DNA of 64,000 nt from Chloroflexota bacterium (GTDB lineage: Bacteria > Chloroflexota > Dehalococcoidia > Lucifugimonadales > Lucifugimonadaceae): the NCBI GenBank assembly GCA_002721615.1, contig PBKW01000011.1, positions 137,211 through 201,210 on the forward strand. Direction: 5' to 3'. Below the pieces are notes generated by a model. That model saw only the letters and a list, made by a program, of their open reading frames with translations. It did not search any database and had not been told where the DNA came from. Positions 28,901-41,934 of the stretch are shown one piece after another. The position numbers and the translations under genes were made by a program. Positions within the stretch are counted from its first letter, which is position 1. The number at the start of each line of letters is the position of its first letter.

Positions 28901-28907
28901 TTTATAT

Positions 28908-28990
28908 GAAGATGGGGGAGCTAATTATTGGCTGAGAGGGTATGACCGACCCCTGAACCTGATACGGATAATTCCGGCGTAGGAAGTTTC
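28908..28990 (+). ncRNA. TPP riboswitch (THI element)
   Basis: The conserved aptamer core is present in order: GGGGGAGC at 28914-28921, GGCTGAGAGGG at 28930-28940, GACCCCTGAACCTGAT at 28949-28963 and GATACGGATAATTCCGGCGTAGG at 28961-28983. P1 looks short and imperfect (GAAGAT against AGTTTC). The 3' conserved AGGAAG (28981-28986) lies eight bases before the ATG at 28995 and is the only SD for the ATPase gene. No terminator separates aptamer and gene. Thiamin diphosphate binding would therefore most simply hide the ribosome binding site, repressing uptake when thiamin is plentiful. The translational mechanism is inferred. Confidence 0.95.
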
Positions 28991-28994
28991 TTTT

Positions 28995-29798
28995 ATGCCA
29001 CAATTTTATCCGAAATTTAAAATGGATAAATTGTTAGAAGTAAAATCATTAGGCAAATCATTTAAAAGAAAAAATATTGAGAAAACTGTTTTTTCAAATA
29101 TAGATTTTCATCTCTTTGATCAAGAAATTATTTCTATTATAGGTCCTAGTGGTTGTGGTAAAAGTACTCTTCTTAATATCATCTCAGAAATAGAATCCGA
29201 TTTTCAAGGTGAAATAATTATCAATGATAGAAAATCATCTCAAGGAACTCAGTCAAAAGTTTCTTATATGCAACAAAAAGATCTATTGCTTCCATGGAGA
29301 AATGTATTAGAAAACGCTATATTGGGTCTTGAAATAAATAAGCTCAACAAACAAAAATCTAGAGAAAAAGCTTTAAAGTTATTACCTGAATTTGGTCTTG
29401 AAGGTACTGAAAAAATGTTTCCAAAACATTTATCTGGAGGTATGAGACAAAGAGTTTCATTTTTGAGATCAATATTGCTTGAAAAACCAATAATGTTACT
29501 TGACGAACCATTTAGTGCATTAGATTCTATTTCTAGATCTAAAATGCATGAATGGGTCTCATCTATTTTGATGAAAAATAAAAAATCTGTAGTCCTAGTA
29601 ACTCATGATATTCATGAGGCTGTTCTACTTTCAGATAGAGTATTAATTATGGGGGGATCTCCAATAAATATTTGTCGAGAATTCAAAATTAATATAGATC
29701 GTCCTAGAAATAAATCTTCAAATAATCAAAAAATTTTTTCGAAATATGAAAAAGATATTTCTGATGAGTTATTGAAACATGTTCCAAAGAATATTTAA
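28995..29798 (+). CDS. thiZ: ABC transporter ATPase for a thiamin precursor (ThiZ-like)
   Basis: 267 residues with Walker A GPSGCGKST (about residue 51), Q-loop SYMQQKDLLLPW, signature LSGGMRQR, Walker B IMLLDEPFSALD and the switch His in VLVTHDIHEA. It belongs to the nitrate/taurine/pyrimidine-precursor (NrtD/SsuB/ThiZ) branch. A TPP riboswitch directly upstream and an NMT1-like binding protein in the operon point to uptake of a pyrimidine (HMP or formylaminopyrimidine) precursor of thiamin. The start at 28995 is preferred because the riboswitch end supplies the SD; Met10 at 29022 has none. It overlaps the permease gene by 20 nt. Confidence 0.9.
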   Translation: MPQFYPKFKMDKLLEVKSLGKSFKRKNIEKTVFSNIDFHLFDQEIISIIGPSGCGKSTLLNIISEIESDFQGEIIINDRKSSQGTQSKVSYMQQKDLLLPWRNVLENAILGLEINKLNKQKSREKALKLLPEFGLEGTEKMFPKHLSGGMRQRVSFLRSILLEKPIMLLDEPFSALDSISRSKMHEWVSSILMKNKKSVVLVTHDIHEAVLLSDRVLIMGGSPINICREFKINIDRPRNKSSNNQKIFSKYEKDISDELLKHVPKNI

Positions 29799-39751: not shown

Positions 39752-40405
39752 TTACAAGTTCGGTTGAGGAGTTGTTCTTAAATACTCTTTAACGATTGTG
39801 TGTCCCTTAGGAAACTTGCTAGGAATATCCTTAGTTTCTACTGCAGGTACAACTATACAGTCTTCACCATATACCCAGTCTGCAGGAGTTCCAACCTGAT
39901 ACTCTGCTGTTAATTGTAGAGAATCAAGAACTCTTAGAATTTCCTGGAAATTTCTTCCTGTTGATGCCGGATATGAAATTATAAGTTTTATTTTCTTATC
40001 AAGACCAATAATAAAAACAGATCTTACAGTAAGAGTATCACTAGCATTTGGGTGGATCATTCCATAAGAATTAGCTATCTCCTTGTTAGGATCTTCAACC
40101 ATAGGAAAATTAACATTTGCATTTTGAGTTTCATTAACGTCTTTGATCCACTTATTGTGAGATTCTAATGGTTCCAATCCTTCCTTGATTCCAACACTTA
40201 AAACTAGTACCTTGGTATTCCTTTTGGTGAATTCTCCTTTTAAGTTAGCTACTCTTCCAATTTCAGTAGTACATACTGGTGTGAAATCTGCAGGATGAGA
40301 CATGAGTAGTCCCCAGCTATCTCCTAACCAGTCATGTAGATTAATTTCACCTAATGTTGTGTTTGCCGTAAAATTTGGTGCTTCGTCGCCTATTTGTAGA
40401 CTCAT
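39752..40405 (-). CDS. Peroxiredoxin, Prx6/1-Cys type
   Basis: 217 residues, thiol peroxidase reducing H2O2 and organic hydroperoxides. The active site is HPADFTPVCTTEIGR with the peroxidatic Cys near residue 45. The C-terminal part (SPASTGRNFQEILRVLDSLQL; PADWVYGEDCIVVP) is the Prx6 pattern; it also contains a second Cys in GEDCIV near residue 185. A good SD (AAGGAG) is six bases before the ATG. A 28-residue Cys-rich leader ORF and a terminator lie upstream on the same strand, suggesting control by cysteine supply. Confidence 0.94.
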   Translation of the reverse strand: MSLQIGDEAPNFTANTTLGEINLHDWLGDSWGLLMSHPADFTPVCTTEIGRVANLKGEFTKRNTKVLVLSVGIKEGLEPLESHNKWIKDVNETQNANVNFPMVEDPNKEIANSYGMIHPNASDTLTVRSVFIIGLDKKIKLIISYPASTGRNFQEILRVLDSLQLTAEYQVGTPADWVYGEDCIVVPAVETKDIPSKFPKGHTIVKEYLRTTPQPNL

Positions 40406-40421
40406 TTTTTCTCCTTAAATT

Positions 40422-40448
40422 AAAAAAACCTCGATTAATTCGAGGTTT
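40422..40448 (-). terminator. Attenuator terminator between leader peptide and peroxiredoxin gene
   Basis: On the minus strand AAACCTCGA (40448-40440), loop ATTAA and TCGAGGTTT (40434-40426) form a 9-bp stem running into seven T residues (40428-40422). It stands 24 bases after the leader-peptide stop and 16 bases before the peroxiredoxin ATG. Transcripts must pass it to reach the gene. The upstream CGGGGT (40494-40489) can pair with ACCTCG (40446-40441) of its 5' arm and would prevent it forming. Confidence 0.7.
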
Positions 40449-40472
40449 AATTACTTTTATATCTTTTAAGAT

Positions 40473-40559
40473 CTATATACGAATTAATACCCCGTTATCA
40501 TTTTGACAACAGTTACAACAACAAGTGTTACTATTTATTAATTCACAAATCCTTTTCAT
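40473..40559 (-). CDS. Cysteine-rich leader peptide of the peroxiredoxin gene
   Basis: A 28-residue ORF beginning MKRICELINS with five cysteine codons in six positions (CCCNCC, residues 13-18) and one more Cys at 5, ending VLIRI. There is no SD before the ATG. A promoter with correct spacing (40567-40595) would start transcription at the A of this ATG, so translation would be leaderless. The ORF is followed by a terminator and then the peroxiredoxin gene. The arrangement is that of an amino-acid attenuator sensing charged tRNA-Cys; a small metal-binding peptide is the alternative. Confidence 0.6.
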   Translation of the reverse strand: MKRICELINSNTCCCNCCQNDNGVLIRI

Positions 40560-40566
40560 GGAGAAC

Positions 40567-40595
40567 AGTCTAAATTTATCTTATTTTTTTTTCAA
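40567..40595 (-). promoter_or_regulatory. Promoter of the leader peptide-peroxiredoxin unit
   Basis: On the minus strand TTGAAA (40595-40590), a 17-base spacer and TAGACT (40572-40567). The predicted start, seven bases on, is 40559, exactly the first base of the leader ATG. The -35 matches consensus in five of six positions, the -10 in four of six. Confidence 0.5.
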
Positions 40596-40603
40596 GATTT
40601 TTT

Positions 40604-41323
40604 TTAACTACTTGGTCCAAACCTTTCAGTTTTGATTTTTTCAAATGGAAATTCTAATTTTATAAGTAGGGCACACATAGCTTCAACGAATTGTGTTGAT
40701 CCACAAACATAAGCAATTTTAGGGCCAATTGTTTTTAATGTGTTTTTAAGAAAATCTTCATTGATTCTGCTATTTGAGTCTTCTTGATTGTTTTCTCGTG
40801 TAAAGAAGAAATGAGGTTTTATATATTCAAAATTTGAAAGCTGATCAATTTCATAAGAATAAATCATGTCTCTTTTGGTTCTGCATGAATAGGCAATTGT
40901 TATAGGAATTTTTTGGTTATGATTGCCATGGACATTTTGTTTCATCATTGATCTTAATGGCGCAATACCAGATCCTCCAGCTAAAAGTAGTAGTGGTCCT
41001 CCCATTTGAGGTGTCCATTTAAAAGGTCCTCCAACTGGTCCTCTAAACTCAATCTTGTCTTCCTCAATCATTTCATTGAAAAAGTAGGGTGATACTTCTC
41101 CGTCTTCAATAAGTTCAACAGTGATTTCAAAAAAAGATTTTTTCTCTGGATGTGAAGAAATTGAGTAACTTCTCTGAGTTTGATACCCAGTTTCAGATGT
41201 CAGTCTTACATCAATGTGATTTCCAGGCTGAAAAATTAATGGTTCATGGGGGATTAACTGAAAAGTTTTTGTTCTGTAATTTTCAGTAATAATTTTTGAA
41301 ATTTTAGCAAACTGCCAATTCAT
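40604..41323 (-). CDS. FAD/NAD(P)-binding oxidoreductase (ferredoxin-NADP reductase family)
   Basis: 239 residues. FAD-binding is indicated by QRSYSISSHP (RxYS motif, about 51-60) and the NAD(P)H-binding domain by LLLAGGSGIAPLRSMM, with YVCGSTQFVEAM at the end. No iron-sulfur or heme-binding domain is attached. ATG 41323 is chosen because it lies 5 nt after the upstream stop codon; an upstream start at 41359 would overlap the previous gene by 31 bases. It likely passes electrons between NAD(P)H and the adjacent molybdopterin protein. Confidence 0.9.
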   Translation of the reverse strand: MNWQFAKISKIITENYRTKTFQLIPHEPLIFQPGNHIDVRLTSETGYQTQRSYSISSHPEKKSFFEITVELIEDGEVSPYFFNEMIEEDKIEFRGPVGGPFKWTPQMGGPLLLLAGGSGIAPLRSMMKQNVHGNHNQKIPITIAYSCRTKRDMIYSYEIDQLSNFEYIKPHFFFTRENNQEDSNSRINEDFLKNTLKTIGPKIAYVCGSTQFVEAMCALLIKLEFPFEKIKTERFGPSS

Positions 41324-41328
41324 TTTGA

Positions 41329-41934
41329 TTAGTCGTTCCAGTATCTTTGTTCCTTCCAAGGGTCTCCATAGTTATGATACCCGTATTGTTCCCAGTATCC
41401 TGCTTTATTTTTTTCCATCAGTTGAATTCCCTGAATCCATTTAGCAGATTTCCAGAAGTAAAGCTTTGGTACAACTAGCCTTGCAGGCCCTCCGTGTTCT
41501 GGAGATAGATTTTCTCCTTCAAAAGTAGTAGCTATCATTGCTTGACCATTTTGAGTGTCTTCTAGAGGCAAGTTTGTTGTATAACCTCCATAACAATATG
41601 CCATTAGATAATGATATTTATTTAGATCTTTAACTTTTTCAAAAATAGTATCAAGAGAGACTCCTTCCCAATTTGTATCAAATTTAGACCATTTAGTTAC
41701 ACAGTGAATATCTGTATGAATTTTTATTTTTGGTAGAGACATGAATTCTTCCCATGACCATGAGTGATCGATATTTTCTCCAATTCTTATTTCAAATTTC
41801 CAAGTGTTTAAATCTACAGGAGGCGTAGGTCCAGCTGTTAGAACAGGGAATGATTTTTCAATGTATTGTCCTGGAGGAAGTCTTTTATTTAACTCAGGAT
41901 TATCTTTCTTGCCAAAAAAATTTCTAGATATCAT
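41329..41934 (-). CDS. Sulfite oxidase-like molybdopterin-dependent oxidoreductase
   Basis: 201 residues of the sulfite oxidase/MsrP (YedY) fold. The molybdenum-ligating Cys is in DIHCVTKWSKFDTNW, followed by WEGVSLDTIF, AYCYGGYTTNLPLED and HGGPARLVVPKLYFWKSAKWIQGI, all family landmarks. There is no N-terminal signal or heme domain, so it probably works in the cytoplasm. Together with the reductase 5 nt downstream it resembles the molybdenum and flavin modules of eukaryotic nitrate reductase split into two genes. The substrate (sulfite, nitrate, oxidised thiol or other) is open. Confidence 0.9.
   Translation of the reverse strand: MISRNFFGKKDNPELNKRLPPGQYIEKSFPVLTAGPTPPVDLNTWKFEIRIGENIDHSWSWEEFMSLPKIKIHTDIHCVTKWSKFDTNWEGVSLDTIFEKVKDLNKYHYLMAYCYGGYTTNLPLEDTQNGQAMIATTFEGENLSPEHGGPARLVVPKLYFWKSAKWIQGIQLMEKNKAGYWEQYGYHNYGDPWKEQRYWND

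Follow-up and report, generated by a model that had tools for sequence, protein, structure and literature searches.

The closest described counterparts of the element treated here are the leaderless polycysteine short ORFs (sORFs) of mycobacteria (Canestrari et al. 2020, Mol Microbiol 114:93, via PMC9094748 and PMC13236596; earlier accounts in PMC1262725 and PMC4633059), whose cysteine response in M. smegmatis is experimental according to the citing papers (PMC9094748, PMC13236596). A further relative is the Rhodobacterales motif uORFC-8-2, which precedes cysS and is predicted to attenuate transcription through its Cys codons, a terminator and a U-run (PMC8632094). In a stretch of 64,000 nucleotides from a Chloroflexota bacterium (assembly GCA_002721615.1, contig PBKW01000011.1, positions 137,211 to 201,210; hereafter the window), an earlier note had proposed a cysteine-responsive attenuator in front of a peroxiredoxin gene and had named the mycobacterial ORFs as precedent. 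That precedent is indeed known but is described in PMC13236596 as translation attenuation. The proposal itself is supported at the level of sequence by conservation, by complementarity beyond that of shuffled sequences and by a second leader in the same genome. The element is very probably a ribosome-mediated transcription attenuator that uses cysteine codons and responds to the supply of cysteinyl-tRNA, with the peroxiredoxin belonging to a small sulfur-supply regulon.

Anatomy of the locus

All elements that had been named before (promoter, upstream ORF, CCCNCC run, CGGGGT segment, terminator, Shine-Dalgarno sequence and peroxiredoxin ATG) were recovered from the sequence at their coordinates on the minus strand, and a 1:2-like hairpin and a longer antiterminator can be added:

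40567-40595, minus strand: promoter TTGAAA (40595-40590)-N17-TAGACT (40572-40567), the -10 element ending 7 nt 5' of the uORF ATG (sequence)
40473-40559, minus strand: predicted leaderless or near-leaderless uORF MKRICELINSNTCCCNCCQNDNGVLIRI, 28 codons, ATG at 40559, stop codon at 40475-40473
40506-40523, minus strand: regulatory Cys codons TGT TGT TGT AAC TGT TGT (CCCNCC; sequence)
40492-40512, minus strand: '1:2'-like upstream hairpin CTGTTGTCA-AAA-TGATAACGG, 9 bp (folding and hairpin scan)
40482-40494, minus strand: antiterminator strand CGGGGT-A-TTAATT, formed by the last codons of the uORF, predicted to pair with 40452-40441 (cotranscriptional fold)
40441-40452, minus strand: antiterminator partner AATTAAACCTCG, overlapping the 5' arm of the terminator (pairing test, folds)
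40422-40448, minus strand: intrinsic terminator AAACCTCGA-ATTAA-TCGAGGTTT followed by T (folding, scan, relatives)
40411-40416, minus strand: Shine-Dalgarno sequence AAGGAG of the peroxiredoxin gene (sequence)
39752-40405, minus strand: peroxiredoxin of 217 aa, ATG at 40405, with AhpC-TSA and 1-cysPrx_C domains (Prx6/PRK13189-like; Pfam, NCBIfam)

The peroxiredoxin matches PF00578 (7e-28) and PF10417 (5e-5), and its nearest NCBIfam model is PRK13189 (1e-58, under the curated cut-off). The terminator stem (40448-40426) comprises 9 bp and a 5-nt loop with a folding energy of -11.2 kcal/mol (z -4.8), and three terminator-like sites were found at the locus as compared to 0.0 per shuffle. The promoter motif by itself does not exceed chance (2 found, against 1.5 from shuffles), but in relatives the distance from the -10 element to the ATG is conserved. 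The six-bp pairing of CGGGGT with ACCTCG suggested by the earlier note is present in the sequence but was drawn too short, as the antiterminator extends to 40482 and the duplex of CGGGGT-A-TTAATT with AATTAAACCTCG holds 12 pairs with one bulge. The upstream 9-bp hairpin ties Cys codons 4-5 to the 5' edge of the antiterminator, as in the classical 1:2 pairing.

In an Rfam search at the locus, T-box and all other leader families stayed under their gathering scores, Trp_leader (16.2 versus 41) and Phe_leader (20.8 versus 55) by far. NCBIfam and Pfam gave no match for the leader peptide of the window, and NCBIfam none for six other leader peptides, bar one spurious weak match to TnpB.

Directly upstream of the leader (40604-41934, minus strand) lie genes for an Oxidored_molyb protein (MsrP/sulfite-dehydrogenase-like) and an FAD/NAD reductase, neighbours that are absent upstream in the two same-genus orthologues described below. 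Elsewhere, the window carries a TPP riboswitch (RF00059, 59.1 bits, 28904-29002, plus strand).

Cysteine leaders before peroxiredoxin and transporter genes

If a leader is taken to be at least two clustered Cys codons together with a terminator, a Cys leader lies upstream of the peroxiredoxin gene in 17 of 21 close orthologues. Three others (L006, L011, L141) have none, and L010 carries a shortened MKTRYKDDLFHL-stop (RYKDDLFHL-stop) with neither Cys codons nor terminator that looks degenerate. The Cys run and the hairpin pair, on whose conservation the earlier note had staked its proposal, are kept in both same-genus orthologues found (L003, L004). Their leader reads MKFYLTQTCCCCCCQxDNGVTSRV, that is, MKFYLTQTCCCCCCQ(D/N)DNGVTSRV-stop, and both retain the CGGGGT antiterminator and a terminator ACCCCG..CGGGGT. 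Relative to the window, the terminator stem shows a two-sided change from T-A to C-G, the antiterminator a change from G-U to G-C, and the upstream hairpin is kept as GTTGTCAGGATGACAAC with G-C in place of G-U. A 1:2-like hairpin over the regulatory codons is seen in the window, in its genus and in L279/L300. In L003 and L004, an inverted repeat AACAAGGG...CCCTTGTT flanks the leader promoter and may be an operator; it is not evident in the window.

More distant families, within the order and the class, show the same architecture with different sequences, and leaders from different families do not align with each other. Five leaders of family f34 end in NCSCCT(D/R)xxGSGY-stop, with CGGGGT and ACCCCGC..GCGGGGT; other peroxiredoxin leaders contain DCSCC..RCS and DCCC..RCS (L007, L041), NSCCTCC (L012), SCCCPVE (L040) or KGCCRV (L142), and in L146 a leader LILCSCCSS is followed by a small gene and then by the peroxiredoxin. 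Within a distant peroxiredoxin clade (about 50% identity), the leaders end in FCCCQNNEVF-stop and LCCCNNKGF-stop (L283, L289), and L279, the same locus as L300, has a CTC leader. The small gene of L146 (1276-1449, genome G526) encodes a 57-aa protein with only a weak match to DUF5679.

Such diversity bears on the idea of a Cys-rich arrest peptide, in which the nascent CCCNCC segment, by binding metal or becoming oxidised, would stall the ribosome from within regardless of tRNA charging. Cys residues, rather than just any codons, are conserved, and Cys-rich peptides bind metal. However, the Cys count varies from 2 to 6 (CSC, CC, CSCC, CCTCC, CCCNCC, CCCCCC), the flanking residues are not conserved between families, and when the ribosome reaches the first Cys codons, the chain has not yet left the tunnel. 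Since only Cys codons, in variable number, are common to the leaders, we consider an arrest peptide very improbable and favour a response to cysteinyl-tRNA.

The leader peptides of L009, L307 and L010 share R(Y/F)xDDLFHL(C) (MLIRYKDDLFHLCSCPI-stop, MICNLVRFDDDLFHLCTRTLL-stop and MKTRYKDDLFHL-stop, respectively) and may represent a leader family of their own or a relic. The RYKDDLFHLCSC and RFDDDLFHLC peptides (L009, L307) may resemble actinobacterial Cys leaders. Pattern searches yielded further candidates that were discarded: across the genus, matches to TGYTGYTGYNNNTGYTGY beyond the peroxiredoxin leaders lie inside coding genes, read out of frame or from the opposite strand, and across f34 those to TGYTCYTGYTGY fall essentially all in coding DNA, so that no further CSCC leader was found in this family.

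Outside the phylum, a Cys uORF with terminator precedes the peroxiredoxin gene in two sister Chitinophagales genomes (L071/L359, L360) and in one Bacteroidia MAG (L135), for example as the poly-Cys uORF MSNSLKISMYNCCCCMKIYRKE with the terminator AAAGCCC..GGGCTTT. The large majority of the Bacteroidota peroxiredoxin orthologues examined have no Cys leader, and antiterminator pairing is weakly supported in these cases (p 0.13 for L071, 0.07 for L135). The wiring of peroxiredoxin to cysteine in the three Bacteroidota MAGs may have arisen independently.

The wider picture, which the earlier note had missed, is that a like leader also precedes a thiosulfate-transporter-like gene (Sulf_transp) of this genome and of its relatives. 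When short ORFs of 6-70 codons were scanned on both strands of the whole 1.461 Mb genome (30.3% GC), only two were found to have at least five Cys within seven codons, each with a terminator within about 50 nt of its stop codon, which argues that the Cys run in the window is not a chance cluster. The second one, MINNQQNCICCCCTSLNRGITARMFIH, is located directly 5' of a Sulf_transp gene (PF04143, 7e-64; YeeE/TsuA-like). Within the order, scanning of 30 distinct transporter loci found a Cys uORF and a terminator at 17, L332 and L338 being doubtful cases. In one genome (G100), a single Cys leader, MIGKQKIDCTCRTPAKRGDNGACSENI-stop, heads an operon of peroxiredoxin and Sulf_transp genes that lie about 14 nt apart, and in another (G090) each of the two genes has its own Cys leader.

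L154, 12035-14955 (G000 contig C8): second Cys-leader attenuator (putative) with Sulf_transp, TusA-like and rhodanese-like genes
L337, 3582-2742, minus strand (G100): shared leader and operon, with a three-way ACCCCCGC / GCGGGGTGAT / ATCGCCCC arrangement in the leader

The Sulf_transp-TusA-rhodanese operon plausibly serves the uptake and use of thiosulfate or similar reduced sulfur, as far as its substrate can be inferred. The transporter leaders, the G100 operon and the paired leaders of G090 thus tie the peroxiredoxin to sulfur supply without reliance on the peptide alone, and peroxiredoxin and transporter operon would together constitute a small cysteine/sulfur-supply regulon under like leaders.

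The same findings bear on what the attenuator senses. An identical mechanism would also operate if the signal were oxidant loss of cysteine (to cystine) or inactivation of CysRS, in which case the leader would be a peroxide/thiol-stress sensor inducing the peroxiredoxin, and it is a peroxidase that is controlled in the 17 close orthologues. However, the leader type is also present on a sulfur transporter with TusA and rhodanese, for which shortage of cysteine or reduced sulfur is the obvious trigger, and in G100 both genes share one leader. Because the partner is a transporter, sulfur shortage is favoured over oxidative loss of cysteine as the trigger, and we judge the oxidant signal to be rather unlikely.

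Antiterminator pairing and the proposed switch

Complementarity between the end of the uORF and the terminator was assessed in 33 leaders (16 peroxiredoxin, 17 transporter) by pairing the segment that starts at the last Cys codon and extends slightly beyond the stop codon with the 5' arm of the terminator, each leader being compared with its own shuffles. The window duplex reaches -10.7 kcal/mol as compared to -4.8 kcal/mol in shuffles (p=0.010). Across all leaders, with the median p taken for each of 17 family-by-gene groups, the combined Fisher p for this pairing is about 2e-14, and the peroxiredoxin groups without Bacteroidota give 7e-9; as the groups are related, these combined values are guides rather than exact probabilities. 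Individually, the five f34 leaders (p 0.07-0.16) as well as L005 and L008 (p 0.25 and 0.22) are not above shuffles. The signal in a cross-pair test (mean rank 0.23, with 0.5 expected by chance) did not reach the strength of that against shuffles because GGGGT/ACCCC is reused in many leaders.

Cotranscriptional fold predictions point in the same direction. When the ribosome is placed on the first Cys codon as if stalled there, 191 of the 251 nucleotides in the terminator arms of the leaders are predicted to be sequestered, as compared to 89.6 +/- 12.1 with shuffled spacers (maximum 130 in 300 shuffles). For the window, all 8 of 8 arm nucleotides are sequestered in the stalled state, and none with the ribosome at the stop codon or with no ribosome, in line with the earlier suggestion that stalling would free CGGGGT and a ribosome at the stop would cover it. 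Equilibrium folding of the window does not show the switch; since the terminator outcompetes the antiterminator at equilibrium, the switch must be kinetic, that is, cotranscriptional. The distance from stop codon to terminator stem is 23-46 nt in all 33 leaders (median about 31), as would be anticipated where a ribosome at the stop codon has to leave the terminator clear while covering the antiterminator.

As to the start of the uORF, 23 of 33 leaders have their best -10 hexamer ending 4-13 nt upstream of it, the window at 7 nt, and scanning these leaders revealed no separate Shine-Dalgarno sequence between the two, the AGGA matches in f34 being part of the -10 TAGGAT itself. For several other leaders, the scan chose a distant -10 although inspection by eye shows a nearer one, such as TATAAT-7 nt-ATG in L289. 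One exception is L146, with a TTG start and an SD-like GGAGA upstream. This pattern supports the prediction that the uORF is translated with no leader or almost none.

Like the trp/his class, the locus thus combines a Cys-rich leader ORF, an intermediate intrinsic terminator and an exclusive antiterminator, the last by computation only. From this anatomy, we infer the following course. Transcription would start at or a few bases from the uORF ATG, and a ribosome would load onto the 5' end without a Shine-Dalgarno sequence. With plentiful cysteinyl-tRNA, it would reach the stop codon and cover 40494-40482, so that the terminator could form and the peroxiredoxin mRNA would be cut off. With scarce cysteinyl-tRNA, it would stall on CCCNCC and leave the antiterminator strand free to capture the 5' arm of the terminator before the 3' arm is made, allowing read-through into the peroxiredoxin gene.

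Two further explanations can be weighed against these data. Control might instead be translation-coupled or Rho-dependent, with the hairpin incidental, given that leaderless poly-Cys uORFs with such a mode are known from mycobacteria (PMC13236596, citing Canestrari 2020; PMC1262725 suggests Rho). Nearly all leaders, however, have a T-run hairpin between uORF and gene whose 5' arm is complementary to the uORF end, and the peroxiredoxin gene has its own Shine-Dalgarno sequence after the terminator, which leaves this mode hardly likely at all. An accidental Cys cluster next to the ordinary terminator of an upstream transcript would fit the unremarkable promoter match and the shortness of the six-bp pairing first noted. 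This is contradicted by the conservation across families and two operons, by the genome-wide uniqueness and by the shuffle tests, so that the comparative data exclude chance for practical purposes and favour transcription attenuation by cysteine codons.

Possible physiological meaning and comparison with known systems

With 40 enolase-superfamily (MR_MLE_C) matches in 1.46 Mb, the genome likely belongs to SAR202 group I, of which 4-75 copies of this superfamily are a hallmark (PMC6946804) and from which isolates now exist (PMC10444878). No PAPS-reductase domain scored over the cut-off in the genome, which is about 90% complete; this would fit a dependence on reduced sulfur. We lean slightly towards the view that, across the whole marine lineage, the regulon under cysteine attenuation regularly includes the 1-Cys-type peroxiredoxin alongside the thiosulfate-type transporter. 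If so, a sulfur regulon that needs no transcription factor and is governed by the position of ribosomes would operate in a marine group of high abundance, which is most likely SAR202 group I. Cells starting to scavenge reduced sulfur would then also raise a thiol peroxidase, peroxide defence being wired to cysteine supply. Peroxide removal would in this way be coupled functionally to sulfur scavenging, a link that was not expected. The pairing of peroxiredoxin and transporter might be explained by the greater sensitivity of cells to peroxide once their cysteine has risen sharply after uptake. The genome scan, the shared operon of G100 and the constant geometry make the attenuator directly testable, and the collected leaders provide a ready set for annotating small ORFs that are otherwise invisible.

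The earlier note's impression that control of a peroxidase in Chloroflexota would be new still stands, in that the literature searched contained no cysteine attenuator on a peroxidase and none in this lineage, which is not proof of novelty. One other cis element before peroxiredoxins is the PBC-28-3 motif upstream of AhpC-like genes, but it consists of one long stem with a conserved loop by the start codon, has no Cys uORF and is proposed to act in translational control (PMC8632094). With the mycobacterial sORFs, the leaders share a short ORF, here predicted to be leaderless, and a Cys run 5' of a sulfur or cysteine operon. They differ in phylum, in peptides without NCBIfam match and in having a peroxiredoxin as one target; moreover, the mycobacterial mode is described as translation attenuation, and the cys upstream regions there lack a conserved terminator hairpin (PMC1262725), whereas here an intrinsic terminator is combined with an antiterminator. 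The uORFC-8-2 motif is likewise a predicted attenuator of transcription in which a ribosome reads Cys codons ahead of a terminator, but it has two tandem Cys codons in the first of two stems and is confined to cysS and to Rhodobacterales (PMC8632094), whereas the present leaders have 2-6 Cys codons and a predicted leaderless start and precede peroxiredoxin and sulfur transporter genes rather than cysS. As in the trp, his and phe attenuators, effector codons, a predicted mutually exclusive antiterminator and terminator and, in the window, its genus and L279/L300, a 1:2-like hairpin are found, unlike them with cysteine as the putative effector and a uORF predicted to be leaderless. The class of attenuator is therefore known, and it is the target gene, the lineage and the layout of a presumably leaderless uORF plus an intrinsic terminator that are, as far as we found, new.
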